From a virus: a DNA stretch of 23,668 nucleotides. The translations under genes were made by a program, and so were the position numbers. The notes under the pieces are model-generated. The model ran no database searches, was not told the origin of the DNA, and saw nothing but the letters and a program-made list of their open reading frames with translations. Location: IMG/VR virus record IMGVR_UViG_3300034789_000174, positions 1 to 23,668 of that record. One strand, 5' to 3'. Below, piece after piece: positions 1,948 through 8,094 of the stretch. The stretch's first letter is position 1; every line of letters starts with the position of its first letter.

Positions 1948-2658
1948 ATGGCATTACCTAAGCTAAACGTACCTAAGTACAAACTGAAACTACCGTCTGA
2001 CGGTAGGACTGTGAACTATAGACCTTTTCTTGTTAAAGAAGAAAAGTTATTGTTAGTCGCAACTGAAACTGGTGAACAATCGGAAATCATCGATGCTATC
2101 AAAGACATTATCAAGAACTGTACGGATCTGGATAGTGTAGATAACTTAGCAACCTTTGATATTGAATATCTTTTCTTACAGATTAGAACTAAGTCTGTTG
2201 GTGAAGAAGTTGAAGTGCTTGTCAACTGCCCTGATGATAAGACAACTCAAGTCAAAGCAAAGATTCCTCTTGACCAGATTAAAGTTAAAAAGACTAGAGG
2301 GCACAAGACTACTATTCAACTAACTGATGAGTGTGCTGTTGAAATGAACTATCCAAGTCTGGATATGTTTGTGACTATGAACTTTACCGATCAACAAATT
2401 ACTGTTGATGATGTATTCAAAATGGCAGCAGCATGTGTGAAAACTATTCAAGATCCTAATCAGGTCTACGAATGTAAAGATATTCCTCAAGATGAAATTC
2501 TTGCATTCTTTGATGATATGAACAGCGCACAGTTCCAGAAGATTCAAGACTTCTTTGACACTATGCCTAAGTTAACACACACCGTGAAGGTCACTAACCC
2601 TAACACTGAAGTGGAGAGTGAAGTAACACTAGAAGGACTGGCAAGTTTTTTCGGGTAG
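1948..2658 (+). CDS. 26: Baseplate hub assembly protein gp26
   Basis: A 236-aa protein that begins MALPKLNVPKYKLKLPSDG, followed by VNYRPFLVKEEKLLLVA. This opening is characteristic of T4 gp26 and of the T4 baseplate protein family as I recall it. The middle has FDIEYLFLQIRTKSVGE and VNCPDD. The C-terminal half is acidic with DDVFKMAAACVKTI and FFDDMNSAQFQKIQDFFDTMPKL, which resembles the tail-assembly chaperone style of protein. T4 gp26 is needed for hub assembly. The gene sits immediately upstream of a tape-measure-like gene, where other phages encode the G/GT chaperones. Four bases before its stop lies a slippery heptamer (2646-2652) that would move ribosomes into the gp51-like frame. Confidence 0.85.
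   Translation: MALPKLNVPKYKLKLPSDGRTVNYRPFLVKEEKLLLVATETGEQSEIIDAIKDIIKNCTDLDSVDNLATFDIEYLFLQIRTKSVGEEVEVLVNCPDDKTTQVKAKIPLDQIKVKKTRGHKTTIQLTDECAVEMNYPSLDMFVTMNFTDQQITVDDVFKMAAACVKTIQDPNQVYECKDIPQDEILAFFDDMNSAQFQKIQDFFDTMPKLTHTVKVTNPNTEVESEVTLEGLASFFG
2631..2655 (+). promoter_or_regulatory. Probable programmed -1 ribosomal frameshift site at the end of gp26
   Basis: In the gp26 frame the sequence reads AGT TTT TTC GGG TAG. T TTT TTC (2646-2652) is a canonical X XXY YYZ -1 slippery heptamer, ending 3 bases before the stop codon. AGAAGGA at 2631-2637 lies 8 bases upstream, the position of the Shine-Dalgarno-like stimulator known from dnaX. A -1 slip continues at CGG (2652) into the frame that encodes the gp51-like tail, giving a fusion of about 295 residues. 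I see no strong downstream hairpin, only a short GGG/CCC pairing. Confidence 0.65.
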
Positions 2659-2834
2659 CCCTACTTCATACCAATCTACAATCATACTATGAGGGTAACT
2701 TTGCATTGATGCACCACCACAAGTGGAACATCGAACATATAGATAACCTTATGCCATGGGAAAAGGAGATCTACATTGATATGCTCGTCCAACACCTCAA
2801 AGCGGAAGAACGTAGAATGAAGGAGAAACAATAG
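2652..2834 (+). CDS. 51: gp51-like C-terminal extension, probably made as a -1 frameshift fusion with gp26
   Basis: The frame 2652-2834 encodes 60 residues beginning RVALLHTNLQSYYEG, then MHHHKWNIEHIDNLMPWEKE, and ending in a charged helix (QHLKAEERRMKEKQ). It is too short for most ORF finders. Cyanophages are annotated with a small gp51 at this place, as I recall. The frame is open only from 2622. Its first ATG is at 2709, leaving 41 residues and losing the front, and there is no ribosome binding site before it. Expression by the frameshift at 2646-2652 is therefore more likely than independent initiation. The 'W-P/N..id.l.p.E...i..L' pattern is what C-terminal T domains of tail-assembly chaperones show. 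It ends 2 bases before the next gene. Confidence 0.65.
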   Translation, partial: RVALLHTNLQSYYEGNFALMHHHKWNIEHIDNLMPWEKEIYIDMLVQHLKAEERRMKEKQ

Positions 2835-2836
2835 CA

Positions 2837-5449
2837 GTGGCAAAAATCGTAGCATACAAATTTGTAAATCCAGGAGGAGGATCTGTAAGATCATCTGGAG
2901 GACTTGCTGCGAGAAGTCAACTGCTTGCTGTTAATCGTATTGGTGCTAGTACTCAGAGTTTAGCGAACACACTAAATGACATCACAAAAATTAATAATGC
3001 ATTTAAAAGAACTGAAACTGAGATAGAGAAAAAGCAACGTAGAAAACTACAAAGAGAAAGAGATAACGCTGCTGAAGAGAGACAAGAAGGTAAATCTCTT
3101 GAGAAGGGTAAAGATTCATCAGGAGAATATACTAAGGCATTAAAGAGAGGAAAACCAAAGGGTCTCCTAAAAGGTGCTCTTGGAATGAAGAATGGTTTCT
3201 TCGGATTCTTAGCAGGATTTCTAGCACCTATAGCAGGTTTGGTGCAGAAACTTATGGCAAAGGCACTCTTCCTTGCGCTATTAAAATACCTATCAGATCC
3301 AAAAAAGACTGAAGAAGTAAAAGTTTTTATTGAGAAGTCATCATTCGTCTTCACAAAACTCTGGGAGTTTGGGTCGATGCTTGTTGGCGGTGTCATGGAT
3401 ACCGTTGGACAAGTTGTTGGAAAGGAGTCTACCCTAGTAGAAAGACTGGTTGGACTTGGTAAGATTGTCGGAGCAATTACTGGCATCACACTCTTGTTGC
3501 AGGGTGTCAATTTTGTGAAAGATGCTCTTGGTCTTGTAGAGACTGTTGAAGATGTAGCAGATGTAGCAGATACTGCTAATGATATAAGAAGAGCAAATAA
3601 TCAGAGGAAAGTTGCGAAAGAGTTAGCAGAGCAATTAGGTGAGGGCGCAGGTAAAATAGCAGCAAAACGATACCGTTATATTGTTGAAGAGTTTGGAGAC
3701 GAGGCAGCAGAGGTCTTCCTCGATACCATGAGAAAGACTGGTGATTTAAAGGAAGCAAACAAAGCAGTTAACGCATTTAGAAAGACAGCAGAGACAGTAG
3801 ACACTGCTACGGATATCGCAAAAGCAGTAGATAAAACAGACACTGCTAAGGATATCGCAAAAGGATTAGATGCTGCAGGAGATATACCTGCTAAACCTGG
3901 TTTTTTCCAGAGAATGTCTCAGGCAATCTCTGATAATAAGTATGTTAAAAAAGGTAGAGGTCTTTTAGACGAAGGAGTAGGCATTGCAAGCAAGGGATTA
4001 AAGGATGCAACAAACTTTGTTAGAAATTTTAATTTTGAAGACTTTGCATCAAAACTTCCTAAACTTGATATCAAGTTTCCTAGACTCGGTATCATTGATG
4101 GGTTAAAGAGTCTTCCAGAAAAAGTAGCAAAAAGATATCAACAGATTGCTGAGGGCACACAGAAAGCATTGAATTGGGCAAGTAGCGCACTTGGCGGTAT
4201 CATGGATAATGTTGGTAAGGGATTTGCTTCTCTTACAGATGCAGCAAAAGACATATTTCTAAAACAGGTTTACCAACGGTTTAAACCATTCTTTGATGGT
4301 ATCGCAAATGTAGTCAAACCCATAGCAAGTAATTTTAAAAAGACATTGTTGTCTATCCCAGGAATGGATAAGGCACCTAAAATCTTGGGTGAGATGGGCA
4401 TCGGTAGTTTCGGTGATATTTCTAAAGCAGGTAGTAAACTAGGAAAGAGGGCAACCAGTTTCTTACCCTTGGTTGGTAGTATCGCAAACTTCTTATTTGC
4501 TTATCAACGTCTGTCACAGGGTGATACTATTGGTGCTTTAATTGAAGGTGGTTCGGGTGCAATCCAGTTTACAGGAGAATTAGCAACAGCAACAGGTGTA
4601 GGTGCAGCACCAGGTCTACCCTTGATCATAGCATCATACGCAGGTGATGGTTACATGTTCCTTCGTGACTTCATTCCCGAATTACAAGAGACAGAAGAGA
4701 AGATAGTCAACGCTATGGGTCTTGGTCCAATGAAGAAATTCATTGACGAAGCATATTCTAAAGTATTGCCTGGTTTTGGCACTATCATGAAGGCGATGTC
4801 AGGTGATCTGGAAGGTGCAAAGGAAATGCACGCAGACCAGAGCAACTTCATGGGTCATGGTAGTGCACTTGAAGCAAAAGCAGAAAAATTATCAGAGGAG
4901 AATGCAGATAGAAACCTTGATGTAAATGAAAAAGGTGAGATAAAAGAAACTAAAACGAAAACAGTTATACCTGTAGGTGAAATGGGTATAATGCAAATGT
5001 TGAAATCTGGAGATCGCAATCTAATATCTAATGCTCTGTTCCAACTGAGATCAGATGCAAATTTTGATAGTGATGAAGGGTTCAATGACTTTGACGGTAA
5101 CCCTGCATATAAAGCAGATGTTGATTTGATTTTGGAAAATGGATTGAATGGTCTCACTATTGAGGGTGGTCGTCCTAGAAAGATTAAGGAAGGTGAGGAA
5201 GAATTTTTCCCAGGGTTTGCAAAAGGTGGACTAGTCCCTGGAGTTTTCTCTGCAGTAAAAGAAAAGGCATCTGATATTCTTGCTAACACTGACCTATCAC
5301 AAAAGATTTCTATTGTCAAGGGAATGGCAGAGCAATACTTCGTTCCACTAGTGCTTAATAAGTTAGCACCTATACCTATGCCAGTGCCAATAAATAGTGG
5401 AGGCGGTAAGGTCGCTAAGGTATCTACATCTATCACTAGACGCTTATAA
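2837..5449 (+). CDS. Large tape-measure-like structural protein (870 aa)
   Basis: Starts at GTG 2837 with AAGGAG 11 bases upstream. Residues about 45-105 are charged and coiled-coil-like (EKKQRRKLQRERD). Residues about 118-155 form a long hydrophobic segment with Gly and Phe (NGFFGFLAGFLAPIAGLV), and further hydrophobic stretches follow near 185-235 and 545-610. The rest is Ala/Lys-rich helix, including a 13-residue tandem repeat near 322-347 (DTATDIAKAVDKT). An FAKGGLVPG motif near 793 is of a kind common at the ends of tape-measure proteins. The gene directly follows the gp26/gp51 frameshift pair, the usual tape-measure position, so a gp29-like tail-length role is likely. Its N-terminal 230 residues resemble those of the next protein (LLKYLS against ILKWLS, LWEFG against WEWAKFG). 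No enzyme domain is visible. Confidence 0.65.
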   Translation: MAKIVAYKFVNPGGGSVRSSGGLAARSQLLAVNRIGASTQSLANTLNDITKINNAFKRTETEIEKKQRRKLQRERDNAAEERQEGKSLEKGKDSSGEYTKALKRGKPKGLLKGALGMKNGFFGFLAGFLAPIAGLVQKLMAKALFLALLKYLSDPKKTEEVKVFIEKSSFVFTKLWEFGSMLVGGVMDTVGQVVGKESTLVERLVGLGKIVGAITGITLLLQGVNFVKDALGLVETVEDVADVADTANDIRRANNQRKVAKELAEQLGEGAGKIAAKRYRYIVEEFGDEAAEVFLDTMRKTGDLKEANKAVNAFRKTAETVDTATDIAKAVDKTDTAKDIAKGLDAAGDIPAKPGFFQRMSQAISDNKYVKKGRGLLDEGVGIASKGLKDATNFVRNFNFEDFASKLPKLDIKFPRLGIIDGLKSLPEKVAKRYQQIAEGTQKALNWASSALGGIMDNVGKGFASLTDAAKDIFLKQVYQRFKPFFDGIANVVKPIASNFKKTLLSIPGMDKAPKILGEMGIGSFGDISKAGSKLGKRATSFLPLVGSIANFLFAYQRLSQGDTIGALIEGGSGAIQFTGELATATGVGAAPGLPLIIASYAGDGYMFLRDFIPELQETEEKIVNAMGLGPMKKFIDEAYSKVLPGFGTIMKAMSGDLEGAKEMHADQSNFMGHGSALEAKAEKLSEENADRNLDVNEKGEIKETKTKTVIPVGEMGIMQMLKSGDRNLISNALFQLRSDANFDSDEGFNDFDGNPAYKADVDLILENGLNGLTIEGGRPRKIKEGEEEFFPGFAKGGLVPGVFSAVKEKASDILANTDLSQKISIVKGMAEQYFVPLVLNKLAPIPMPVPINSGGGKVAKVSTSITRRL
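3800..3877 (+). repeat. Two 39-base tandem repeats within the 870-aa gene
   Basis: Units 3800-3838 and 3839-3877 agree at 32 of 39 positions. They encode DTATDIAKAVDKT and DTAKDIAKGLDAA. A looser copy of the same motif (DVADVADTANDI) lies near 3550-3588. The units keep the reading frame, so they lengthen a helical region. Confidence 0.8.
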
Positions 5450-8094
5450 TGGCAAAGGCAGCGGTACAAAAAGGTAGTAAGATTAATGTTTACAAGGTAG
5501 TAAGCATTAAAGAACCTGATGCGAAGATGAAGAAGGTAGATCCTGCTGATTATGAAACAGCAAAAGGTCTTAATAAAACTACAGTAGCAATCAATAACTT
5601 AGGTGCCACTATCAATGGCATGAATGCGATGGTTGCTGATCTTAAGCAGGTATCATTAGATCGTCTTGAAGAAGCGAATAAAAATAAACCTAAAATGGAT
5701 CCCAAATATGGGACAACAAAGAAGGGTGGTGGTATACTAGGTGCGATTGCAAAAGGATTTGTAAAGACTGGTGGTAGTTTCCTTGGTGGTTTGTTAAAAC
5801 TACTAGGTGGGATGTTCAAGTTATTCATAGTCCTTCCCATCCTAAAATGGTTATCCAAAGAAGAGAACCAACAAAAAGTTGCAGGTGCCCTAGAGGTAAT
5901 GGCAAAGTTTGGTAAATTCGTTTGGGAGTGGGCAAAGTTTGGAATCACAAATACGATAGATGGACTATATAAATTACTCAGCGATGATTCATCATGGATG
6001 GATCGTATTGTTGGATTTGGACAGGCGTTCCTAGGATTTGCTTCTATCTTCATTGGCATGAAGGGGATAGCATGGTTACTAAATCCAGTCAAAGTCGTTA
6101 AGGGTATTTCAGCAGCAATCAAAGCATTAATTAAGTTCGCGACGAAAAGAGGAGCAGGGAATTTGATACCAAAGAATCCTTTAAAGAAAAACAGATTTGG
6201 AAAGGCAGCAGGTGGGATGGTTACAGGTGCATCAATAACAATGGCACCTATGGTAATGATGCCACAAATGGCAAAAGGTGGTTGGATCTCTGGACCTCAG
6301 TCTGGATATCCTGTATCACTGAATGGTGGCAAATCAATATCATTCATTGGTCATGGTACAGAGTATGTCTCACGGAAGGCAGGTGGACAAGCATTTGTCA
6401 CCCCGTATGATACTCCTGCAACCCGTAAGAATCCTGGTCTGACTGCTATGAGACAAGCAGAGGCAAAGAGAAAAGGTTTTGCTGAGGGTGGAGAAGTAAA
6501 AGAATCGTTGAATCTAACTGAAGATCAGTTCAGAAATCTTGCATTTGGTGTGAGTGGTGAAGCACAACGGGGCACTGATGATGAGTTTGGTGTTGCAGCA
6601 GCAATCTTGAATAGAGTTGCAGATCCTAGGTATCCTAGTAGTATCATGGCAGTTCTCTCTGCTCCCAATCAGTTTGAAGCATACCATAAAGGTATGATGA
6701 GATATGATGAACGCTTACAAGACAGACTCTCATCTCAAAGTGGACAAGAAGCAATCATTAAAGCACTAAGAGAACTTAAAGGTAGAACTGACTTTAAGGG
6801 AACTGCCATGTACAAATACATGGGTGCAGATGATATTAAGTTCTCTAGAAGAGGAAACTTCTATCACTATCCAGAACAGAAAACAAAATCCGATCCTCCT
6901 CCAGATACTATTCCAACTCATTACCTAAGATTCATTCAGAATCAAGAGGCATCAGAAGATCAGCAAAGAGGAGAATCAAGTGAACGTAAGGGTCCCATGG
7001 GTGTAATGGGCAAATTACAAGGGGCACTCTCTGGTGTTACTAACATGCTTAGTAACATTTTCTTGGGAGGTCCTGCTTCTGCTGCAGAAAATCCAGGTGT
7101 CGTAGATCCTCCTCCAAAAAAATTAGAATCAGAAGCAAACAATAAAGAAGGTGCGAATGCTAGTGCAGGTCCCGAATCTGGTAGTTTAGGAGAGAAAGTA
7201 TTCCCACTTCCTAAAGGTAGATTCCAAGCAACAGCAAGACAGGTGTTTGGCGCACCAAGAGGAGGAAGAAGTCATGCAGGTGTAGACTTAACTGAAGCAC
7301 CTCCTTGGGGATCAGATCCAAAGATTCCTGTTGTTGCTGCTATTGCAGGATCAGTGTTAGCGGAAAGATATAAAGCAGGTCAAACATACTACTCAGGTAT
7401 GATGATCAGAGGTGAAGATGGTCATGATCAAAGATACTTGCACATGGAACCTAGCGTCAAACCTGGGCAGCAAGTCAATGCAGGTGATCAGATTGGTAGA
7501 CTTTACGATGATAGAGACAACAGTCACCTACACTTTGAGGTATACAAAAACGGTAAGGGTGGACCTCTAAATCCATCTCTCATCTATCCTAGTCTGTTCA
7601 AAGCAGGATCTACAGGTGGAGGACAGATGACTAATCCTACTGCCTTCAGTGGTGCTGCTGTAACAAGTCCTGGACAGAACAAACCTCCTCAAGCTGCCAT
7701 TCAATCGATGGGTGATATGCAGAGAGATACAGATACAACCTTCTCTGGTCAAGATGGTATTATCAGTCAGTTCTCTGCTGAAAAGACAAGAGTAGCAGAG
7801 TTACAAAAGGCAACCGATGATAGAGATAAAGAAAGAGAAAACTTCAAAACAGGAGTAGAGAATGCATTAATGCAAGCATCGCAACAGGTTCAACAATCTA
7901 ACCAACAGAGTGCTGCTGCTATTCAGCAGTCACAGCAAGGTGTTGCTCAAGCATCCAATAGCGGTGGTGGAGATAAACCTGTAATCAGTGGTGGTCTGCC
8001 TGGAATTGGTAATGTGAACATCAATGGTGTTCTGAAAACTACAGCATACGCACTGAACTCTAACAATAACTTTATGCGAGGTATTCTTAGATGA
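5449..8094 (+). CDS. Tape-measure-like protein with SleB-like and M23-like peptidoglycan hydrolase domains (881 aa)
   Basis: Start ATG overlaps the preceding stop by one base. Residues 1-225 resemble the previous protein: basic start, coiled region, then a Gly-rich hydrophobic block at about 94-136 (GGLLKLLGGMFKLFIVLPIL). Around 275-350 are MAKGGWISGPQSGYPVSL and FAEGGE motifs typical of tape-measure proteins. Residues about 351-490 match the SleB cell-wall hydrolase pattern: LAFGVSGEAQ with the presumed catalytic Glu, GVAAAILNRV, and NQFEAY. Residues about 580-715 match LytM/M23 endopeptidases: HAGVD (H609, D613), YLHME (H665) and HLHFEV (H693, H695), the zinc-site pattern. After 730 it is Gln/Ser-rich and coiled. 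It probably degrades peptidoglycan as DNA enters, in place of the lysozyme absent from gp5 here. Whether it is also a length ruler is inference. Confidence 0.75.
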   Translation: MAKAAVQKGSKINVYKVVSIKEPDAKMKKVDPADYETAKGLNKTTVAINNLGATINGMNAMVADLKQVSLDRLEEANKNKPKMDPKYGTTKKGGGILGAIAKGFVKTGGSFLGGLLKLLGGMFKLFIVLPILKWLSKEENQQKVAGALEVMAKFGKFVWEWAKFGITNTIDGLYKLLSDDSSWMDRIVGFGQAFLGFASIFIGMKGIAWLLNPVKVVKGISAAIKALIKFATKRGAGNLIPKNPLKKNRFGKAAGGMVTGASITMAPMVMMPQMAKGGWISGPQSGYPVSLNGGKSISFIGHGTEYVSRKAGGQAFVTPYDTPATRKNPGLTAMRQAEAKRKGFAEGGEVKESLNLTEDQFRNLAFGVSGEAQRGTDDEFGVAAAILNRVADPRYPSSIMAVLSAPNQFEAYHKGMMRYDERLQDRLSSQSGQEAIIKALRELKGRTDFKGTAMYKYMGADDIKFSRRGNFYHYPEQKTKSDPPPDTIPTHYLRFIQNQEASEDQQRGESSERKGPMGVMGKLQGALSGVTNMLSNIFLGGPASAAENPGVVDPPPKKLESEANNKEGANASAGPESGSLGEKVFPLPKGRFQATARQVFGAPRGGRSHAGVDLTEAPPWGSDPKIPVVAAIAGSVLAERYKAGQTYYSGMMIRGEDGHDQRYLHMEPSVKPGQQVNAGDQIGRLYDDRDNSHLHFEVYKNGKGGPLNPSLIYPSLFKAGSTGGGQMTNPTAFSGAAVTSPGQNKPPQAAIQSMGDMQRDTDTTFSGQDGIISQFSAEKTRVAELQKATDDRDKERENFKTGVENALMQASQQVQQSNQQSAAAIQQSQQGVAQASNSGGGDKPVISGGLPGIGNVNINGVLKTTAYALNSNNNFMRGILR

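Follow-up and report, generated by a model that had tools for sequence, protein, structure and literature searches.

A probable −1 frameshift joining gp26 to a gp51-like frame in a T4-like tail chaperone locus

The gp26 gene and the gp51-like frame that overlaps its end very probably constitute one gene with two products, a tail assembly chaperone pair of the lambda G/GT type made by −1 ribosomal frameshifting. The locus is found in IMG/VR record IMGVR_UViG_3300034789_000174, a 23.7-kb fragment of a cyanobacterial virus that was analysed over its full 23,668 nt and is referred to here as the window. This reading had been proposed in the initial annotation and is supported by comparison with relatives, in which the slippery heptamer is conserved and the −1 frame extension is under selection but has no conserved start of its own. 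Three alternatives were each considered and found unlikely, namely a start within the −1 frame, slippage during transcription and conservation of the protein alone.

Frameshifted tail chaperones are known in most long-tailed viruses and have been reported for relatives of T4 in 2022, and the core claim is not new here. Vladimirov, Gautam and Davidson (2022; Virology 566:9–15) reportedly identified the tail assembly chaperone genes of T4-like phages (TAC-N and TAC-NC); the frameshift is said to be retained in several T4-like groups, with T4 relying on genes 26 and 51 instead. As the account goes, these are the same genes as in the window, with some groups using a frameshift and others having distinct genes for the short form and for a fused long form, and in this outline there is no essential difference from the core claim. 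The 2022 work is cited by PMC10885494 and PMC12846349, whose statements agree with this outline, and the core claim is therefore treated as already known.

Slippery heptamer and locus arrangement

All features described are on the + strand. The gp26 gene (1948–2658) predicts a 236 aa protein that belongs to PF12322 (E 5.7e-75) and phrog_150 (E 4.8e-87), shares 98.7% identity with gp26 of P-RSM1, a cyanophage of Prochlorococcus MIT9303, and would be the short (TAC-N) form of the chaperone. The frame-0 sequence of gp26 ends GCA AGT TTT TTC GGG TAG, with GGG at 2653–2655 and the TAG stop codon at 2656–2658. The heptamer T TTT TTC is located at 2646–2652, in phase and 3 bases before the stop as first described. 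The −1 extension (RVALLHTNLQ...; 2652–2834) adds 60 aa and a stop codon, and includes a gp51-like C-terminal domain (phrog_634, E 1.4e-28).

Most ribosomes would terminate at 2656–2658 and release the chaperone in its short, 236 aa form. In a minority, a −1 shift onto TTT TTT would occur while TTT and TTC occupy the P and A sites, and these ribosomes would go on to produce a predicted long form of 295 aa with the gp51-like domain at its end. Both the occurrence of slippage and its rate are what we infer from the features described below. As in lambda gpG/gpGT, the slip would take place in the −1 direction near the end of the short gene and be followed by a −1 extension, and the pair is flanked by a tail tube gene on one side and a long gene on the other. 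However, the window proteins belong to a different family (PF12322), and the slip site is T TTT TTC whereas that of lambda is G GGA AAG. A locus in Vandenendeviridae and Andersonviridae also combines a conserved −1 frameshift with a run of T where TAC-N ends, and its extension is annotated as a gene of its own, but these are other phage families and the motif is GTTTTT (PMC12846349).

The word TTTTTTC is not itself rare, occurring 6 times on both strands of the window with 8.2 expected, and the case therefore rests on conservation of its phase, its position and the open frame. Within the gene at 2837–5449, T TTT TTC occurs in phase once more (3901–3907), probably by chance, since its −1 frame soon meets a stop, about ten codons on when judged by eye.

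Relatives were gathered from IMG/VR and from annotated phages, giving 257 distinct junctions, in effect a broad natural series of variants at a single frameshift site that could be used in experiments. Conservation of the heptamer, the check originally suggested, is seen in 255 of the 257, which carry T TTT TTN in phase. Exactly 3 bases 5′ of the stop, TTTTTTC is present in 235 and TTTTTTA in 8, and the remaining junctions mostly have T TTT TTT, T TTT TTG or a site shifted one codon toward or away from the stop. When gp26 was clustered at 80%, the heptamer was kept in 111 of 113 representatives, and at 50% gp26 identity in 22 of 24 clusters. TTT serves as the first slip codon in 111/111, compared with a share of 66% among the remaining Phe codons in these genes, and it is preceded by T in 111/111, across six different codons. 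Likewise, none of the six T varies among 156 diverged cyanophage-type sequences in which synonymous sites are saturated (pairwise pS 0.73–0.77), so that shared ancestry alone fails to explain conservation of the heptamer, though the representatives are not independent. In C48C1-type relatives (L105, L346–L351), the slip codons are within a T run, eight T long in C48C1 (T TTT TTT), and the frame-0 stop follows immediately.

An invariant run of six T, and of eight in the C48C1 type, might also reflect slippage of RNA polymerase, such that some mRNAs carry an extra base and normal translation then makes the fusion. However, six T make a short run for efficient slippage by the polymerase, and the phase T TTT TTN, the selected Shine-Dalgarno (SD)-like element and the RNA hairpins would all be unneeded, leaving this origin for the fusion exceedingly improbable. 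We give next to no credence to the further view that no frameshift occurs, with Phe-Phe kept just for the C-terminus of gp26 and the −1 frame a relic. The FF motif is indeed conserved in frame 0, including in T4 gp26, which is without the heptamer. However, in eight relatives (L335, L336, L337, L339, L343, L344, L345 and L252) the site is T TTT TTA and frame 0 reads Phe-Leu, yet the site is still slippery, which argues that the nucleotides are kept rather than Phe-Phe. The fixed synonymous positions, and the purifying selection on a −1 frame free of stops, are also at odds with a relic.

Counting against frameshifting, two Ackermannviridae-type relatives, Det7 and Vibrio phage D504, have a gp51-like −1 frame without the canonical heptamer. 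The sequence in Det7 is GAG ATT TTC (L098:2290-2330) and in D504 TCA CTT TTC (L097:2180-2220). A KVP40-type query for remote loci found no loci.

The −1 frame and the T4 proteins gp26 and gp51

From 2622 the −1 frame stays open as far as a TAG at 2832–2834 and, as had been claimed, is a gp51-like ORF that lacks a usable start. The earliest possible starts are TTG at 2706 and ATG at 2709–2711, and either omits the first third of the conserved extension. A conserved gp51 start, which would have argued against a frameshift, was looked for among the 156 diverged sequences and none was found, the position equivalent to 2709 being ATG in 100 and the opening 28 codons of the −1 frame being free of ATG in 13. 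Between the frame-0 stop and the internal ATG (2661–2708), pN/pS for the −1 frame is 0.42 with 0 stops in the same 156 sequences, compared with 1.2 and 1.4 for the other two frames, which include 128 and 270 stops. The substitution pattern indicates constraint on the −1 frame at the protein level upstream of any possible gp51 start.

That gp51 is instead a separate short protein, started within the −1 frame at ATG 2709 or an alternative and coupled to termination of gp26, is very unlikely. The ATG is present, its position is shared by the 100 relatives counted above, and KVP40-type relatives have an ATG that overlaps the gp26 stop (TAATG). However, start positions scatter, constraint on the −1 frame sets in at the heptamer, 5′ of the ATG, and T4 gp51 is a fusion; a separate start would also give no reason for the fixed wobble bases of the heptamer. 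Annotated gp51 starts in phage records are at varied offsets or gp51 is omitted, and many cyanophage records appear to carry gp51 wrongly started or missing. In the near-identical P-RSM1 record (L082, after 3211) gp51 is wholly unannotated, consistent with the absence of a usable start.

In T4, genes 26 and 51 are separate and divergent. Residues 1–206 of T4 gp26 match PF12322, and so do residues 1–201 of T4 gp51, in which the phrog_634 domain follows (profile match at 147–246). When aligned with in silico fusions, gp51 of T4 and of EcS1 continues straight across the slip point, and in T4 gp26 the same FF motif is followed by three more residues before the end. These alignments indicate that T4 gp51 is a hard-wired long form and T4 gp26 the short form. 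As gp51 of T4, like that of EcS1, is an in-frame fusion of both parts, T4 would use two genes for the short and long forms where the cyanophages appear to use one. The initial annotation had set separate T4 gp26 and gp51 proteins against a single gene in the window; the single overlapping locus stands, but the cyanophage 'gp51' is equivalent to only the C-terminal part of T4 gp51. The window pair resembles the T4 pair in having PF12322 in the short form and the gp51 C-terminal domain (phrog_634), and differs in being one locus with overlapping frames, whereas the T4 genes have no slip site and the long one is a complete fusion, an arrangement that does not occur in the window. Cyanophage gp51 has been described as about 20% of T4 gp51, without the first ∼200 residues (PMC3037559), and this shortness would arise because the absent part corresponds to gp26, joined by the frameshift. 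Short and long forms appear to be encoded by a single gene in cyanophages, KVP40-type Vibrio phages, pf16, Aeromonas phage AS-szw, and Stenotrophomonas, Rhizobium and Desulfovibrio phages.

Sequences flanking the heptamer

An SD-like sequence, AGAAGGA, is located at 2631–2637, 8 bases upstream of the heptamer as initially noted, and would probably raise the efficiency of slippage. In 156 relatives, the predicted pairing of the SD-like Glu-Gly codons with the anti-SD averages −5.6 kcal/mol, compared with −4.4 kcal/mol for a synonymous null (z about −9), and the Glu codon is GAG in 95/149, versus 32% elsewhere. Other stretches of gp26, used as a control, gave anti-SD z values from −5.8 to +5.7, and values near 5 are therefore counted as background. 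Codon usage at this site indicates that the SD-like codons are chosen for anti-SD pairing stronger than synonymous chance. More distant relatives, for example RHph_I1_9 and Yut3, have a weak SD-like element or none.

The region downstream of the heptamer (2658–2700) is also predicted to fold more stably in relatives than a synonymous null (−8.8 versus −5.0 kcal/mol, z −31; control stretches −5.6 to −10). Many relatives have a hairpin 5–10 nt 3′ of the heptamer that probably raises slip efficiency, and the helices, short and strong in L199, L205, L206, L266 and their relatives, differ by lineage. P-HM1 types have GCCCTC-loop-GAGGGC five nt 3′ of the heptamer, and a second group has GGTCC-ATAT-GGACC with the paired changes GATCC/GGATC and GGTTC/GAACC. 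In the second group, both sides are changed in some sequences at 4 of the 5 pairs, and the covariation score was reached by 0/500 shuffles, a control that kinship can inflate, and for this reason the lineage-specific hairpins are considered likely rather than proven. The helix of a third group is AGTATGGCWC/GWGTCATACT.

A single RNA structure conserved 3′ of the heptamer was rejected as universal, RNAalifold having found no common helix in 22 or in 156 relatives, and lineage-specific hairpins take its place. The possible hairpin of the window itself (2658–2696) is weak, with a stem of only 5 bp (2658–2662 / 2692–2696) and a regional z of −1.36. Both the want of a universal structural element and the weakness of the window hairpin count against frameshifting. 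It is possible, though on balance doubtful, that while the heptamer is frozen across T4-like cyanophages, the elements that set efficiency (SD-like strength and hairpin) have been rebuilt repeatedly by lineage, perhaps tuning the ratio of short to long form to tail length or to host ribosomes. In a limited literature search, neither the constraint at codon level in the SD-like element nor the turnover of the downstream hairpins was found described.

Predicted chaperone function and neighbouring genes

The lambda model assigns tape measure binding to G and tube protein binding to T, and the tail chaperone frameshift is described as widely conserved, T4 excepted (PMC5009743). For T4, gp26 and gp51 are counted among the chaperones of hub assembly (PMC3004832). 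If the division of labour is the same as for gpG and gpGT, as we infer by analogy, coating the tape measure would fall to the short form, and the long form would bring in components of the tube or hub.

The predicted model of gp26 has a pLDDT of 85.5, and its predicted viral structural relatives are gp26-type proteins. Compared with solved structures, the HK97 tail assembly chaperone (2ob9) has the top probability among the matches listed (0.60), but its E-value of 1.7 is not significant, which also counts against the frameshifted chaperone reading. The phage-like protein YqbN is among the matches listed too, again with an E-value that is not significant. A sequence search of solved structures gave no match.

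Directly 5′ of gp26 is a gene of the tail tube family (1074–1916; phrog_45 'tail tube', E 7.7e-51). The pair had been placed directly before a tape-measure-like gene, and an 870 aa gene (2837–5449) does adjoin it on the 3′ side. However, its likeness to a tape measure is one of position and length, PHROGs assigns it to phrog_790 'endolysin', and T4 gp29 falls in a different PHROGs family, so the product is regarded as a positional candidate for the tape measure. This gene and the next (5449–8094) are successive genes of ∼875 aa that share weak similarity (19% over 94 aa, E 4e-6). Both belong to PHROGs families labelled endolysin, and the second contains Peptidase_M23 and Hydrolase_2 domains.
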